A stretch of 64,000 nt of DNA from Cognatishimia activa. Lineage in GTDB: Bacteria; Pseudomonadota; Alphaproteobacteria; Rhodobacterales; Rhodobacteraceae. The translations under genes were made by a program, and so were the position numbers. The stretch spans positions 2,108,001 to 2,172,000 of the forward strand of contig NZ_CP060010.1 of the NCBI RefSeq assembly GCF_017798205.1. The letters run 5' to 3'. Position 1 is the first letter of the stretch, and each line of letters begins with the position of its first letter. Of the stretch, positions 15,669 through 27,975 are shown piece after piece. The notes under the pieces are model-generated. The model saw only the letters and a list, made by a program, of their open reading frames with translations, ran no database searches and had not been told where the DNA came from.

Positions 15669-16595
15669 ATGACCCATTTTCTAGATATCCACAAAACCGA
15701 TCCTGCGGATCTGCGGTCGATGATCGACACAGCGCGCACGATGAAAGAGGCGCGCGCGGGCCTACCTAAGGGCACACCGGATGCGGATCAGCCTCTGGCC
15801 AACCACATGGTTGCGCTGATCTTTGAAAAGCCGTCGACCCGGACACGCGTGTCCTTTGACGTGGGCGTGCGCCAGATGGGCGGGCAGACCATGGTGCTGT
15901 CAGGAAAAGAGATGCAGCTTGGCCATGGCGAGACGATTGCCGACACCGCGCGGGTTCTAAGCCGCTATGTCGATCTAATAATGATCCGGACGTTTGAAGA
16001 GCAGACCCTGCTTGAACTCGCAGAATACGCGGATGTGCCGGTGATCAACGGTCTGACAGATCGCACCCATCCCTGCCAGATCATGGCCGATATCCTAACC
16101 TATGAGGAGCATCGCGGCTCGATCAAAGGCAAAAAGGTTGTGTGGTCGGGTGACGGCAACAACGTCTTTGCAAGCTTTGCCCATGCGGCCGGTCAGTTCG
16201 GGTTTGATCTGACATTTACGGGGCCGGAACAGCTTGATCCAGAAGAAGAGTTTCTGGAACTGGCGCGCTCGAAAGGCAGCAACGTGGTGATCGAACGCGA
16301 TCCGCAGAAGGCCGTTGAAGGCGCGGATCTGGTGGTCACGGACACTTGGGTGTCCATGCACGACGCGCAATCCGCGCGGGAACGTCGCCACAATCTGCTG
16401 CGGCCGTATCAGGTGGATGATGCTCTGATGAGCCATGCGAAGTCGGATTCACTGTTCATGCACTGCTTGCCAGCGCACCGTGACGAAGAGGCGACGTCTT
16501 CGGTCATGGACGGTCCGCATTCCGTGATCTTTGATGAGGCTGAAAACCGTCTGCATGCGCAGAAGGCGATTATGCGCTGGTGTTTGGGGAAATAG
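15669..16595 (+). CDS. argF: Ornithine carbamoyltransferase
   Basis: This enzyme makes citrulline from ornithine and carbamoyl phosphate. The 308-residue protein has the carbamoyl-phosphate motif [14 protein letters not shown], the [11 protein letters not shown] segment, the ornithine-binding DTWVSMHD region and the catalytic HCLPAHR. It follows argD by ten bases with GAGGG upstream and is surely in the same operon. After its stop lie two overlapping hairpins and a repeat-like sequence shared with hrpB. Confidence 0.96.
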
Positions 16596-16604
16596 GGTAG
16601 AGCG

Positions 16605-16662
16605 AAGGGGCTTTGCCCCCTTGGCCGATGGCCAATTCCCCCAGGATATTTTGAGCAAGAGA
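16605..16662. repeat. Short palindromic 3'-flanking repeat element, copy 1
   Basis: Two overlapping hairpins (AAGGGG/CCCCTT at 16605-16622 and TTGGCC/GGCCAA at 16621-16635) are followed by CCCCCAGGATATTTTGAGCA and AGAGAAAA. The last part resembles a second copy after hisA at 52760-52790 (GAGTATTTTTGGCAAGATGAA). Both copies sit directly after a stop codon of a minus-strand gene (hrpB, hisA). From memory, similar strings occur often in Rhodobacterales intergenic regions. It may serve as an argF terminator on the plus strand. Confidence 0.5.
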
Positions 16663-16669
16663 AAAGGGT

Positions 16670-19105
16670 CTACTTGCGCGGTTTGGCGCGCAGGGTGGGG
16701 TCGGCTTGTGTTGGGTCTTCGGGCCAGGGATGTTTGGGATAGCGGCCCCGCATGTCTTTGCGCACGTCGGCGTAAGAGCTCGCCCAGAAGCCGGGGATAT
16801 CGAGTGTGGTTTGTACCGGCCTGCGGGCTGGCGAGAGCAGCGTGACACGTAGAGGCGTATTACCCACCATCGGGTGGGTGGTCTGGCCGAAGAGTTCTTG
16901 CAGCCTGAGGCTTATTTCGGGATGTTCACCGGCGTAGTCGATTGGGATTTTGTTTCCCAAAGGTGTTGTGAAATGCGCCGGTGCGAGGCGGTCTAGCGTC
17001 TGGGTTTGAGCGTAGTCCAGGCGCGCGCGCAGGGCATTTAGGCAGTCGAAACTGCGCCATTGGGCGGCGGTTTTGATCCCGTTGATATAGGGGAGCAACC
17101 AATCTTCGAGTGTGTCCAAAAGCGCGTCCTGCGACATATCAGGGAGGTCTTTGCCGGCGTCTCGGGCCAAAGTGACACGCGCTATGAACCTGTTGGCCGC
17201 GTCACTCAGCACCAGTCCGATCTCTCGTATTCCATCGAGCATCGCGGTGGCTATGGCTTCGTCAGGGGCGTCTTTCCAGATTTGGTCTGACAGCGCGATC
17301 GCCCCGAGCCGTTCTTGGCGACGCGCAACAACGCGGCCGTCGCGTTTGGACCAACTGCACGTCTCTTCCCATACAATCCGGTCGCCAAAGAGGCCCCTGA
17401 TATCTGACTCGCTGATGGTCACCGCCTGCCGGATCTTGGCCTCACGTGGATTGCCGTCCAGATCCGTTGCCACGATCAATCGCGCCGAGGCCATTGGGTC
17501 GTCTTCGGCCATGATAGCCCCCTTGCCGCCGGACAACACAAAGCGCGGCGCATCGCCTTTGCGGTGCAAGCCGATGCGGTCGGGATAGGCGAGGGCGGCC
17601 ATTTCTCCGAGGCTCATTGGGGATGATGTGCCAATCCCTTTGGCGAGGCGCTTGGCCTCGTCTTTGATCGTGTGAAGGGCGCCGCGGTTGACTTGATAGG
17701 GACGGCGGCTTTCGAAACCTTTCAGGTCTGCGAGTGCTTCGACCCGTAGGCCAAGGTCGCAGGGCGCGCCGCGAGATAGCGGATCTCGGGCTGCCAAGAG
17801 AGCCGCCAGCGGGGCGGCCTGTTGCCCTGCGGTCAAAAGCATATGCGCAAGGCGCGGGTGCAGTGGCAGCTTGGCAATCGCGCGGCCATGATCTGTGATC
17901 TGTCCGCGTGCATCCAATGCGCCGAGCATTGCCAAAAGCGCACGCGCCTCTGATAGCGTGGCCGCATTCGGGGGCGTGAGGAAAGCAAGATCAGCAGCCT
18001 CCGCCCCCCATTGCGCCAGCTCCAGCGCCAGCCCAGTCAGGTCCGCACTTTCGATTTCGGCCGGAGGGTAGGCCTGCAAAGCGCCTTCCTCGCCTTTGGT
18101 CCAAAGCCGATAGCAGACACCTTCGGCAACACGCCCGGCGCGCCCTTGGCGTTGCGTGGCTTCTGCGCGGGTGACTTTTTCGGTGACCAGCCGCGACATG
18201 CCGGAACCCGGATCAAATCGCGCCCGCCGCGCGCGGCCTGCGTCCACGACAACGCGGACATCCTGAATGGTCAGAGAGGTCTCGGCGATTGAAGTGGCTA
18301 GTACGACCTTTCGCCCGGAAGACGCGGGTTGGATGGCGGCCCGTTGGGCTTTGAAATCCATCGCACCAAAGAGCATGTGGATCTGGCAATCAGGTGGCAA
18401 AGACAGCTGGTTGGCGACACGGCGGATCTCGCCTTCTCCGGGCAGAAAGACCAGCACGCCGCCGTGGGTTTCCTCAACGGCCCTCTCGATGAGCGCGGCG
18501 CAAGCCTGTTCCAAGCGCATGTCTTTGCGCACAGGCGCGTCGAGCCAGCGCGTTTCAACCGGAAAGCTGCGCCCGTCAGACGAGATCATCGGCGCGTCGC
18601 CCATGAGTTTCGCGACAGGTGCTGCGTCCAAAGTTGCGGACATGGCCAGCAGGATCAAATCGTCCCTCAGGGCCTCGCGAACCTCAAGACACAGGGCAAG
18701 CCCAAGGTCGGCATTCAAAGACCGCTCGTGAAATTCATCGAAGATAACCGCGCCAACGCCTGTCAACTCGGGGTCGCTTTGCAGCATGCGGGTTAGGATG
18801 CCCTCGGTGACGACCTCGATGCGGGTGGTCTTCGAGGTTTTGGTCTCTCCGCGGACGCGGTATCCGACGGTTTGGCCGACGGCTTCGCCCAAAGTCTGAG
18901 CCATGCGTTCGGCCGCTGCCCGCGCCGCGAGGCGACGGGGTTCCAGCATCAGGATCTTGCCCTCGCTCAGCCCCGCTCGTAGCATTTCCAGCGGCACGAC
19001 TGTTGTTTTCCCGGCCCCCGGCGGCGCCTGCAAAACGGCATGTCCCGTATCGCGCAAAGCGCGCAGCAGATCTGGGATAGCAGAGTGGATCGGCAGCTCG
19101 GTCAT
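16670..19105 (-). CDS. hrpB: ATP-dependent helicase HrpB
   Basis: This is an 811-residue DEAH-box superfamily 2 helicase. It has Walker A (APPGAGKTTVVPLEML), motif II variant DEFHERSLN, motif III SATLD, and motif VI-like EATQRQGRAGRVAEGVCYRLW. A helicase-associated HA2/OB region follows, then the HrpB-specific C-terminal domain (SLRLQELFGQTTHPMVGNTP). Length matches the family. The cellular role of HrpB is poorly defined; RNA or RNP remodelling is assumed from the helicase class. It is divergent from meaB with 139 bp between them. Confidence 0.95.
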   Translation of the reverse strand: MTELPIHSAIPDLLRALRDTGHAVLQAPPGAGKTTVVPLEMLRAGLSEGKILMLEPRRLAARAAAERMAQTLGEAVGQTVGYRVRGETKTSKTTRIEVVTEGILTRMLQSDPELTGVGAVIFDEFHERSLNADLGLALCLEVREALRDDLILLAMSATLDAAPVAKLMGDAPMISSDGRSFPVETRWLDAPVRKDMRLEQACAALIERAVEETHGGVLVFLPGEGEIRRVANQLSLPPDCQIHMLFGAMDFKAQRAAIQPASSGRKVVLATSIAETSLTIQDVRVVVDAGRARRARFDPGSGMSRLVTEKVTRAEATQRQGRAGRVAEGVCYRLWTKGEEGALQAYPPAEIESADLTGLALELAQWGAEAADLAFLTPPNAATLSEARALLAMLGALDARGQITDHGRAIAKLPLHPRLAHMLLTAGQQAAPLAALLAARDPLSRGAPCDLGLRVEALADLKGFESRRPYQVNRGALHTIKDEAKRLAKGIGTSSPMSLGEMAALAYPDRIGLHRKGDAPRFVLSGGKGAIMAEDDPMASARLIVATDLDGNPREAKIRQAVTISESDIRGLFGDRIVWEETCSWSKRDGRVVARRQERLGAIALSDQIWKDAPDEAIATAMLDGIREIGLVLSDAANRFIARVTLARDAGKDLPDMSQDALLDTLEDWLLPYINGIKTAAQWRSFDCLNALRARLDYAQTQTLDRLAPAHFTTPLGNKIPIDYAGEHPEISLRLQELFGQTTHPMVGNTPLRVTLLSPARRPVQTTLDIPGFWASSYADVRKDMRGRYPKHPWPEDPTQADPTLRAKPRK

Positions 19106-24506: not shown

Positions 24507-24830
24507 ATGCCAGCAATTGCCAAACGCAACGATTACCAGACTGTTATCACGACCTTTGAAATGACGCCGGGGACGTGTCAGGACCTCATAGATGCCCTGA
24601 ACGAAGCCTATGCGGATTTCATTTCCAAACAGCCGGGTTTTATTGCTGCGGGGCTACATGTGAATGACGCGCAGACGCGCATTGCCAACTATTCTCAATG
24701 GGAGAAGCGCGAAGATTTTCAGGCGATGTTACGCACTCCCGAGATGCGCGAGCGCAATAGACATATCTCGGCGCTGTGTAAGAATTTCGAGCCGGTCATG
24801 TATGATGTGATCGACACCTATCGAACCTAG
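24507..24830 (+). CDS. Antibiotic biosynthesis monooxygenase (ABM) domain protein
   Basis: This 107-residue single-domain ABM protein has a dimeric alpha-beta barrel of the ferredoxin-like fold. Recognisable features are VITTFEMTPGTCQDLIDALN, SKQPGFIAAGLHVNDAQTRIANYSQWE and the later AMLRTPEMRERNRHI. ABM proteins range from quinol monooxygenases to heme-degrading enzymes; the exact reaction cannot be assigned. An AGGAG ribosome-binding site precedes the ATG. The universal-stress gene follows nine bases downstream, so the two likely form an operon. Confidence 0.85.
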   Translation: MPAIAKRNDYQTVITTFEMTPGTCQDLIDALNEAYADFISKQPGFIAAGLHVNDAQTRIANYSQWEKREDFQAMLRTPEMRERNRHISALCKNFEPVMYDVIDTYRT

Positions 24831-24839
24831 GCCCCCCCA

Positions 24840-25247
24840 ATGTACGCGCATATTCTCATGCCGGTGAGTTTGGATGAAGGGGCGGATCTTGCCCCCAAAC
24901 TTGCTGTGGCCCGCCAACTGGCGGGCGAAGATGCGCGCGTGACGCTGCTGCATGTGATGGGAAATATTCCAGAGTATGCCAGCAGCTATCTGCCCCATGG
25001 GTATCAGGACGAGACGCGGGCTCAGATTGAGTCTGCCCTCACTGAAATCGGTGGCAGCCTGAGCAATGTTGAGGGGGTCGTGTTGAACGGAAAGCCTGTT
25101 CAGGTGATCCCGGACTTTGCGAGATCCAAAGATGTGGATTGCGTGATCCTATCCGTCAGCCCCGAAAGTCGGCGAGAGCTAAAATCGGTCGAAACCATTG
25201 CGCAATTGCTGCGTCAGCTGAACTGCGCGGTCCATATTCTGCGATAA
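24840..25247 (+). CDS. Universal stress protein (UspA family)
   Basis: The 135-residue protein has the Usp fold: an N-terminal strand HILMPVSLDEGADLAPKLAVA, then VTLLHVMG, and the C-terminal SKDVDCVILSVSPESRRE. The usual ATP-binding G-x2-G-x9-G-S/T pattern is not present as such, so it may be of the non-nucleotide-binding type. It is probably co-transcribed with the ABM gene. Downstream is the long AT-rich stretch with DnaA boxes. Confidence 0.85.
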   Translation: MYAHILMPVSLDEGADLAPKLAVARQLAGEDARVTLLHVMGNIPEYASSYLPHGYQDETRAQIESALTEIGGSLSNVEGVVLNGKPVQVIPDFARSKDVDCVILSVSPESRRELKSVETIAQLLRQLNCAVHILR

Positions 25248-25403
25248 ATCCTGAAAATTTGATGCGCTTTGTCGTGCAGCTCGTGCTGCTGAGGTCGACA
25301 TTTCGTCCATTTGGACGACCTGAGCGCGCATTTTCTCTAAATCACTGATATTTATCGTCTTTTCGGGTTGCGCAATAGCGCTTGCGCTCGTAGATTAACT
25401 TTC

Positions 25404-25412
25404 TGTGGATAA
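25404..25412 (-). promoter_or_regulatory. DnaA box 1 (perfect TTATCCACA on the minus strand)
   Basis: TGTGGATAA is read on the plus strand, the exact complement of the high-affinity DnaA box. Confidence 0.8.
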
Positions 25413-25486
25413 GTCATTTTCGCGGTTTCACGCTATTTTTGCCTGGTGAACCGATGACTGTTTCTCGATTTGAATAAATCACCGAG

Positions 25487-25495
25487 TTTTCCACA
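25487..25495 (+). promoter_or_regulatory. DnaA box 2 (variant TTTTCCACA)
   Basis: It fits the relaxed consensus TTWTNCACA and lies in the opposite orientation to the other three boxes. Confidence 0.6.
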
Positions 25496-25530
25496 TTTTT
25501 GTTCGAATATGAAAATTATAGTTCATCCAA

Positions 25531-25539
25531 TGTGGATAA
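25531..25539 (-). promoter_or_regulatory. DnaA box 3 (perfect TTATCCACA on the minus strand)
   Basis: TGTGGATAA on the plus strand, in the most AT-rich 60 bases of the region (18 G or C in 25501-25560). Confidence 0.8.
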
Positions 25540-25567
25540 ATATCGCATTTGAGTCCAAAAATTGGAA

Positions 25568-25576
25568 TGTGGATAA
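25568..25576 (-). promoter_or_regulatory. DnaA box 4 (perfect TTATCCACA on the minus strand)
   Basis: TGTGGATAA on the plus strand, 37 bp from box 3 and in the same orientation. Confidence 0.8.
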
Positions 25577-25803
25577 GTCGATTTGGCAGCGTGTTTGCCG
25601 CTCAAAGCGGTCATTTTAGACCGAAATTCGGGGTGTCTTATAGGATAATTTGGCTTCGGTTTTGGTGCTCTTTTTGCAAGATCCCGAGTGTCGTTGTTCT
25701 CAATTGGACAAATGTTCGAAATTTCATGAACTTAAGACGCGTTCTTTATAGATTAGTGGGCCGTAATCTCTGAAAACCAAGCAAAGTGGGCACAAAGGAC
25801 GTG

Positions 25804-27975
25804 CTAACGCCCGCGTCGCCTCACATTGCCGCCACGCTGACCAGGGCGGCCCGCGGTTGATCGGCCTTTGGTCGCCGTATCCGCCGCAGCATCAATCGCG
25901 GATTGCCGTGCAAGAGGGTCGTCCGCGACTGCCAGATCCACCGCCTCAAGCCGCTTTACTTCGTCGCGAAGACGTGCGGCTTCCTCGAACTCAAGGTTCT
26001 CGGCAGCTTTGCGCATCTCTTCCCTCAGGCCCTGCAGATGGGCTTCAAGGTTTGCGCCATGCATTGGTTTGTCGATGGTGGCTGTCACGCGGTTCATGTC
26101 GGTGTCGCCCTGATAGAGCCCCGCCAGAACATCTTCGACGTTCTTTTTAACGGTTGCAGGCGTGATGCCGTGCTCTTCGTTATAGGCGATCTGCTTTTCG
26201 CGACGGCGCTCGGTTTCCTTCAGCGCACGCTCCATCGAGCCGGTAATGCGGTCGGCATACATGATGACACGCCCGTCAGCATTCCTCGCGGCGCGGCCGA
26301 TGGTCTGGATCAGAGACGTTTCAGAGCGCAGGAAACCCTCTTTGTCTGCGTCCAGAATGGCGACCAGCCCACATTCGGGAATGTCCAAGCCCTCGCGCAG
26401 AAGGTTGATCCCGATTAAGACGTCAAAGGCCCCAAGACGCAGGTCGCGCAGGATCTCGATCCGCTCGAGCGTATCGATGTCGCTGTGCATGTAGCGCACT
26501 TTGATGCCCTGTTCATGCAGGTATTCGGTGAGGTCCTCGGCCATGCGCTTGGTGAGCGTCGTCACTAATGTGCGGAACCCGTTGGCGGTGACTTTGCGCA
26601 CTTCGTCTAGCAAATCATCGACCTGCATCTCGACAGGGCGGATTTCGACCTCTGGATCCAACAGACCCGTCGGGCGGATCACCTGTTCAGTAAAGACGCC
26701 GCCGGATTGCTCCAGCTCCCAATTGGCGGGGGTGGCCGAGACAAACACCGACTGCGGGCGCATCGCGTCCCATTCCTCGAACTTCAGAGGGCGGTTGTCC
26801 ATACACGAGGGCAGGCGGAACCCATGCTCGGCCAGCGTGAACTTGCGCCGATGGTCCCCGCGATACATGCCGCCGATCTGAGGCACAGAGACGTGGCTTT
26901 CATCAGCAAAGACAATCGCGTTGTCGGGGATGAACTCAAACAGGGTGGGGGGCGGCTCACCCGGCGCACGGCCCGTCAGATAGCGTGAATAGTTCTCGAT
27001 CCCGTTGCAAAAGCCCTGCGCCTCAAGCATCTCGAGGTCAAAGTTGGTGCGCTGCTCCAGACGCTGCGCTTCCAGAAGTTTGCCGTCATCCACCAATTGG
27101 TCGAGCCGGATCTTGAGCTCTTTTTTGATGTTCAGAATAGCCTGGTTCAGCGTCGGCTTTGGCGTCACATAGTGAGAATTTGCATAGACCCGGATTTTTT
27201 CAAAAGTGTCCGTCTTTTCACCCGTCAGCGGGTCAAATTCCGTGATCCCCTCCAGTTCCTCACCAAAGAAAGACAAGCGCCAGGCGCGGTCTTCGAGGTG
27301 GGCAGGGAAGATTTCCAGACTGTCACCACGCACGCGGAAAGATCCGCGCTGGAACGCCTGATCATTACGCCGGTACTGTTGCGCCACCAGATCCGCCATG
27401 ACCTGTCGCTGATCATAGTCTTGACCCACGACCAGATCCTGCGTCATCGCGGAATAGGTCTCCACTGAACCAATACCGTAGATACAGCTGACCGAGGCCA
27501 CGATGATCACATCATCCCGCTCCAGCAAAGCGCGGGTCGCAGAGTGACGCATCCGGTCGATCTGTTCGTTAATCTGGCTTTCTTTTTCGATATAAGTGTC
27601 AGACCGGGGAACATAGGCTTCTGGCTGATAGTAGTCGTAGAACGACACGAAATATTCGACCGAGTTCTCGGGAAAGAAGCCTTTGAATTCGCCATAAAGC
27701 TGGGCCGCAAGCGTTTTGTTCGGCGCCAGAATAATCGCGGGGCGCTGCGTTTCCTCGATGACCTTGGCCATTGTGAACGTCTTGCCGGTGCCGGTTGCGC
27801 CCAACAGGACTTGATCGCGCTCTCCGTCGAAAACACCTTGGCTCAGCTCTGCAATCGCCGTGGGTTGGTCGCCAGCAGGGTCAAATTCCGTCGCCATGAC
27901 AAAGCGTTTGCCGCCCTCGAGCTTTTCGCGCGGAGCGTTTTGGACGGGCGTGCTGTCGGAATTGGCGTAAGGCAA
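25804..27975 (-). CDS. uvrB: Excinuclease ABC subunit B
   Basis: UvrB is the damage-verifying helicase-like core of nucleotide excision repair; it partners UvrA and UvrC. The 723-residue protein has Walker A ([16 protein letters not shown]), the beta-hairpin region ([20 protein letters not shown]), DEAD-like DESHV, and the helicase motif [13 protein letters not shown]-terminal UVR motif ([20 protein letters not shown]) is followed by a basic Gly/Arg tail. The start codon is TTG at 27975, supported by AGGAG six bases upstream; the first in-frame ATG would remove 26 residues. Confidence 0.96.

Follow-up and report, generated by a model that had tools for sequence, protein, structure and literature searches.

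The window analysed here is a stretch of 64,000 nucleotides from the chromosome of Cognatishimia activa (NZ_CP060010.1, positions 2,108,001 to 2,172,000); five-digit coordinates refer to the window and those in the millions to the chromosome. Within it, a Usp-family gene on the plus strand (stop at 25247) and uvrB on the minus strand (stop at 25804) converge on an intergenic gap, so that both of its borders are gene 3' ends, as the original prediction for this DNA had stated. DnaA is the protein that starts replication and DnaA boxes are its docking sites; four are found in the gap. The features are given below with reference to a genus sample of nine genomes (G000 to G008), in which G000 is the window's own genome and G004 that of a sister species.

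24840 to 25247, plus strand: Usp-family gene (PF00582), 3' end adjoining the gap
25248 to 25803, no strand: intergenic gap of 556 bp between converging genes, 42% GC
25404 to 25412, plus strand: box D (letters counted from uvrB), perfect DnaA box TGTGGATAA; 9 of 9 bases kept in G004
25487 to 25495, entered as plus strand: box C, inverted near-box TTTTCCACA; perfect in G004, with a one-mismatch counterpart in G001 and G003
25496 to 25530, no strand: B-C spacer, 35 bp inside the inverted pair
25531 to 25539, plus strand: box B, perfect DnaA box, 44 bp start to start from box C
25551 to 25555, no strand: the only GANTC of the gap (GAGTC), situated between boxes A and B; the aligned G004 bases are also GANTC
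25568 to 25576, plus strand: box A, perfect DnaA box at a distance of 37 bp from box B, with all 9 bases the same in G004
25804 to 27975, minus strand: uvrB, 723 aa, 3' end adjoining the gap

The box group and its rarity

The sequence TGTGGATAA occurs on the plus strand at 25404, 25531 and 25568 and has no other copy in the window, and the inverted near-box TTTTCCACA at 25487 points in the direction opposite to these three perfect boxes. All four fit within 173 bp, exactly where they had been predicted. The GC content given in that prediction, 39%, is close, yet it equals neither the value for the whole gap (42%) nor that for the 173-bp box segment (35%). Boxes A and D are parts of a 20-nt direct repeat (85%).

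The chromosome, a single contig of 3,252,335 bases, has 28 perfect boxes (roughly one in every 116 kb), against a reversed-control count of 11. The gap is the only place at which more than one of the 28 is found; all others stand alone. Sites of the form TTWTNCACA number 152 genome-wide, with positions listed for 100 of the 152 places. Three perfect boxes were reached in none of 100 dinucleotide shuffles of the window, and the four boxes observed in the gap at up to one mismatch compare with a mean of 0.12 and a maximum of 2 in 3000 dinucleotide shuffles. DnaA itself is encoded once in the genome, at 1578029, and carries GGRDHTTV, a signature typical of a box-binding DnaA.

Other features of the gap were sought by simple means. 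No Rfam match was returned up to E 1 within 25100-26000, and an RNA feature at the gap was rejected at that level. Neither a promoter-like site (sigma-70 consensus scan only; shuffle mean 0.8) nor a terminator-like site (simple scan; shuffle mean 1.2) was detected there; with both counts at zero, under the shuffle means, a promoter or intrinsic terminator was rejected at the level of these scans. The full CtrA site TTAAN7TTAA is absent from the gap, and GANTC occurs in it once. The exact IHF consensus WATCAANNNNTTR is found on neither strand of the gap, although the IHF of this species may have its own preference, and no one-mismatch IHF site lies at a place common to G000 and G004. On the other side of the Usp gene, an ABM-family protein is encoded at 24507-24830; its identity in six relatives of the genus is 71-94%, and it has many relatives in other roseobacters.

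Conservation within the genus and beyond

The original prediction had proposed looking for the cluster at the same place in related genomes, and the outcome speaks for its non-origin alternative: the full set is present in G004 and part of it in G001 and G003, though G005, G006 and G008 (three of the nine genus members) have no box in the gap. In G004, whose UvrB is 99% identical, the four boxes follow one another as in the window, in unchanged orientation and at unchanged distances (37/44/83 bp). Of their 36 bases, 34 are identical, versus 271 of the 520 other positions of the gap (52%; Fisher p 1e-7; bases facing an alignment gap scored as different). The same comparison gives 199 identical fourfold sites out of 359 in uvrB (55%), so that outside the boxes the gap seems to evolve almost neutrally. 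Spacing and orientation are exactly maintained although the DNA that separates the boxes has diverged, apart from portions of the B-C spacer, in which the blocks TGAACTATA and TCGAACAAAA (minus-strand reading) are identical in G004.

G001 and G003 keep the 44-bp inverted pair, each box with a single mismatch; in G007 three near-boxes are arranged differently, and G002 has one perfect box. Outside G000 and G004, the gaps of the seven remaining genomes (ends set by hand from ORF lists) together contain 8 near-boxes where 0.37 were expected from shuffles, and a 44-bp inverted pair arose in none of 3000 shuffle sets. A DNA search with the whole gap gave a match in two of the nine genomes, namely the window's own and G004. 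The cluster looks to be under selection, judged from these alignments, and within the genus only.

In six of the nine genomes (G001, G002, G003, G006, G007 and G008; loci L082-L084 and L086-L088) a small membrane-protein-like gene lies between uvrB and the Usp gene on the strand of uvrB. It has no Pfam match, and no match to it was found anywhere in the genomes of G000, G004 and G005. The original prediction had judged promoter control by DnaA unlikely. In the window the boxes are not in front of a gene, since both flanking genes end at the gap, and the judgement is correct for G000 and G004, which have the full cluster; it does not extend to G001, G002, G003 and G007, in which the small gene begins beyond the boxes as seen from the uvrB stop. 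Since G000 and G004 keep the full cluster, apparently under selection, without this gene, its control is not the present role of the cluster, which may nevertheless have begun in that way.

Beyond the genus, the cluster was found behind uvrB in none of 29 other genera. These were taken by best UvrB score from 188 matching genomes, the window's own among them, with about 1.5 kb of sequence behind uvrB per genome (740 bp in L052). Near-boxes at this place number none in 22 genera, one in six and two, 743 bp apart, in one. Across the family, the 44-bp inverted pair at up to two mismatches occurs in 11 of 394 genomes, including the window's own, versus 3 of 394 for the reversed control; in six of the ten other genomes it is on a different contig than uvrB or hundreds of kb away. 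These counts give no family-wide signal, and conservation of the pair at that level was rejected. Among 80 named loci, uvrB was recognisable in 38 and the cluster is present only in L089, with a single near-box in one other; L141 comprises 756 bases only. As L089 is the same contig as G004 with the same boxes, it is no independent witness.

Perfect direct box pairs 10-40 bp apart are found at 18 places in 17 of 295 family genomes, against 1 for the reversed control. Comparison of the 17 places other than the window's own was limited to the window and 60 kb around the origin; at least one of them, L187, is at oriC by its neighbours. The scatter of pairs and groups over the family suggests that off-origin clusters may arise and vanish at different places. 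Several were noted individually. In G285 (L174:1459-1642), two ORFs flank a 184-bp group of three perfect boxes and one near-box, in no recognised origin neighbourhood, and in G301 (L178:1447-1531) three perfect boxes in the same direction lie within 85 bp. A perfect pair in G257 (L177:1501-1530) stands beside ORFs with counterparts at 15789-18187 of the window. Two perfect boxes 21 bp apart are common to G001 and G002 (L169:4224-4253 and L170:4131-4160) and precede a short ORF; no such pair is listed for the window's genome. The listing of box places elsewhere in the genus extends as far as part of G006, so that further clusters may occur in G006, G007 and G008. The ORF beside this pair is presumably gatB-like.

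The replication origin

Only one other group of four boxes (at up to one mismatch) within 250 bp was found in the sampled sequence, which amounts to 740 kb of the genome, window included. It lies at 1282138-1282342 and is followed by two more boxes up to 1282570 (L014:18138-18570). It lies between ORFs that we take to be rho and maf/aroE, and further ORFs of L014 near it appear to be of the parAB and gidAB types. Four of its boxes are spaced 25/116/183 bp, alike in G000, G001 and G002, and G003 has a perfect box pair 183 bp apart. With assumed KOPS and parS sequences, three perfect parS sites were found, only at 1.2747-1.2789 Mb, with a fourth place at two mismatches; the reversed control gave one place. 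In the 740-kb sample, the direction of the KOPS-like sequence GGGNAGGG switches near 1.28-1.30 Mb and again between 2.895 and 2.960 Mb, with 64 plus and 7 minus sites on one arm and 3 plus and 50 minus on the other (arm limits of 1.2825 and 2.92 Mb chosen after inspection of the sampled data). Cumulative GC skew is lowest near 1.30 Mb in the contiguous stretch, about 18 kb from the group at 1282138-1282570, with a second minimum at about 1.28 Mb; its sign agrees overall with KOPS, single stretches being noisy and some of the wrong sign. The group at 1282138-1282570 is therefore the probable oriC of the genome. Proximity to parAB was among the criteria by which oriC was placed in a survey of Rhodobacteraceae (PMC6699656, excerpts).

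The window cluster lies 851 kb from the probable oriC, which is 26% of the genome and about halfway along the right arm. The original prediction had allowed that it could be oriC. In favour of an origin here, or of a second active one, perfect boxes are denser than at 1282138-1282570 and they lie in AT-rich DNA. Against it, KOPS-like sites across the window number 11 plus and 0 minus, and the polarity switches seen in the sampled stretches lie near 1.28-1.30 and 2.90-2.96 Mb. Neither origin-linked genes nor parS were found near the cluster, and the candidate 851 kb away combines parS, parAB- and gidAB-type genes, rho, a box spacing common to G000, G001 and G002 and a polarity switch. The proposal is contradicted by this evidence, and we regard origin activity at the window cluster as extremely improbable.

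Possible roles of the cluster

DnaA sites outside oriC help to time replication in Escherichia coli and Bacillus subtilis. The alternative named in the original prediction, a non-origin DnaA-binding locus, fits the arrangement, which is kept in G004 and partly in two other species. On present sequence data, the cluster is a real, genus-restricted and apparently selected element, distinct from the origin, whose function is most likely the control of DnaA. Within this class we favour a locus of the titration type, a reading that may well be correct and in which our confidence is about even. For it speak the status of the gap as the sole place with several perfect boxes among 28, the selective conservation in G004 and the unchanged polarity of the window; against it, the full set is known only in G000 and G004, part of one genus, and in none of the 29 other genera.

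As a titration locus, the three perfect boxes and the inverted near-box would be bound by DnaA as a cooperative group. Because the flanking genes both end here and the site is half-way along the arm, 851 kb from oriC, the cluster would be duplicated in the middle of the replication period, with a twofold increase each time in a high-affinity DnaA sink remote from oriC. The level of free DnaA could then be set in part by the cluster, which would damp early re-initiation.

The closest model for such a role is found in the DnaA-box clusters (DBCs) of B. subtilis. Like the window cluster, these lie in non-coding DNA, consist of several DnaA boxes and are separate from oriC, and they are proposed to lower free DnaA; the window has the corresponding arrangement, several boxes within a few hundred bases (173 bp), remote from the probable oriC. 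They belong to an unrelated lineage, differ in sequence and have been tested, whereas the present cluster is known from sequence. In PMC5010248 (extracts), the B. subtilis clusters are described as shown only to titrate DnaA-ATP, and one of them is reported to work best near oriC, unlike the mid-arm position seen here. It is also possible that pure titration is too weak to account for the exact spacing, since one four-box site adds little to 28 perfect boxes and 152 TTWTNCACA sites. The exact spacing suggests more than a passive sink, which makes an action like that of DARS or datA the main rival.

In that reading, which we consider unlikely, the pair B-C and the outer boxes A and D would fix the geometry of DnaA and lead to ADP release or ATP hydrolysis; the conserved 35-bp spacer might be occupied by a protein that bends DNA. 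The cluster resembles E. coli DARS1 and DARS2 in being non-coding and off oriC, with several boxes that include an opposing pair and a spacing conserved in the lineage; it is mid-arm, and DARS2 is likewise well away from oriC. Conservation of spacing and orientation while the inter-box sequence changed, together with the partly conserved B-C spacer, argues for this rival. The possible likeness to DARS, whose core comprises three boxes with two of them opposed, is one of described layout: the cluster has an inverted pair and two further boxes, at distances of 37, 44 and 83 bp. Boxes I and II of DARS cores are in opposing orientation (PMC8682772, excerpts), and the spacing around the IHF site matters in datA (PMC4585315, excerpts). 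With datA the cluster also shares four to five boxes in a non-coding gap with conserved spacing. However, datA depends on an IHF site flanked by boxes that are themselves essential (PMC4585315 and PMC10950094, both in excerpts) and DARS2 requires IHF and Fis (PMC4585315, same excerpts), whereas the gap has no exact IHF consensus, nor a near-match shared by G000 and G004. A distance of 44 bp within the pair would also be wide for direct contact without bending, and datA is near oriC (PMC5010248, extracts), in contrast to the window cluster.

An element acting on transcription is rather unlikely. It could originally have given DnaA control of the small gene, in keeping with the boxes that precede this gene in four relatives, or could now form a roadblock to read-out from the converging genes, a possibility raised by the lack of an intrinsic terminator in the simple scan. 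DnaA on its box is reported to block RNA polymerase (titles by Schaefer and Messer among the references of PMC10950094). Yet the two species with the full, best-matching cluster are without the small gene, G006 and G008 have the gene and no box, and promoter-like sites fall below the shuffle mean. Boxes adjoin uvrB in E. coli too, but there they are in the uvrB promoter (PMC6015884, abstract), and here they are behind its 3' end. The full set in two species only, and the absence of boxes from a third of the genus sample, would suit a chance cluster or a functionless relic. This we hold to be very unlikely, as conservation of the box bases greatly exceeds that of the other gap positions and that of fourfold sites, and none of 3000 shuffles matched the observed numbers.

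A bolder scheme, in our view distinctly unlikely, could conceivably join several of these elements. The four boxes would form a mid-arm nucleoprotein switch around the 44-bp inverted pair, by which DnaA is altered in its nucleotide state; Rhodobacteraceae would thereby have a first DnaA-activity control site of a separate kind. It would have grown from the promoter region of the small gene, which then disappeared, the boxes being retained and refined.

No report of an off-origin DnaA cluster in Rhodobacteraceae was found in a search of openly available literature, and this is weak evidence for novelty. Novelty is further tempered by the occurrence of DARS-like sequences in many proteobacteria, those like DARS1 and DARS2 being described as conserved in many species (PMC10380432, excerpts). 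The higher density of perfect boxes at the window cluster than at the probable oriC calls for caution with origin finders based on DnaA boxes. The cluster provides a short, precisely spaced candidate in a marine relative of the roseobacters, which would allow a test of whether off-origin DnaA clusters matter in alphaproteobacteria.
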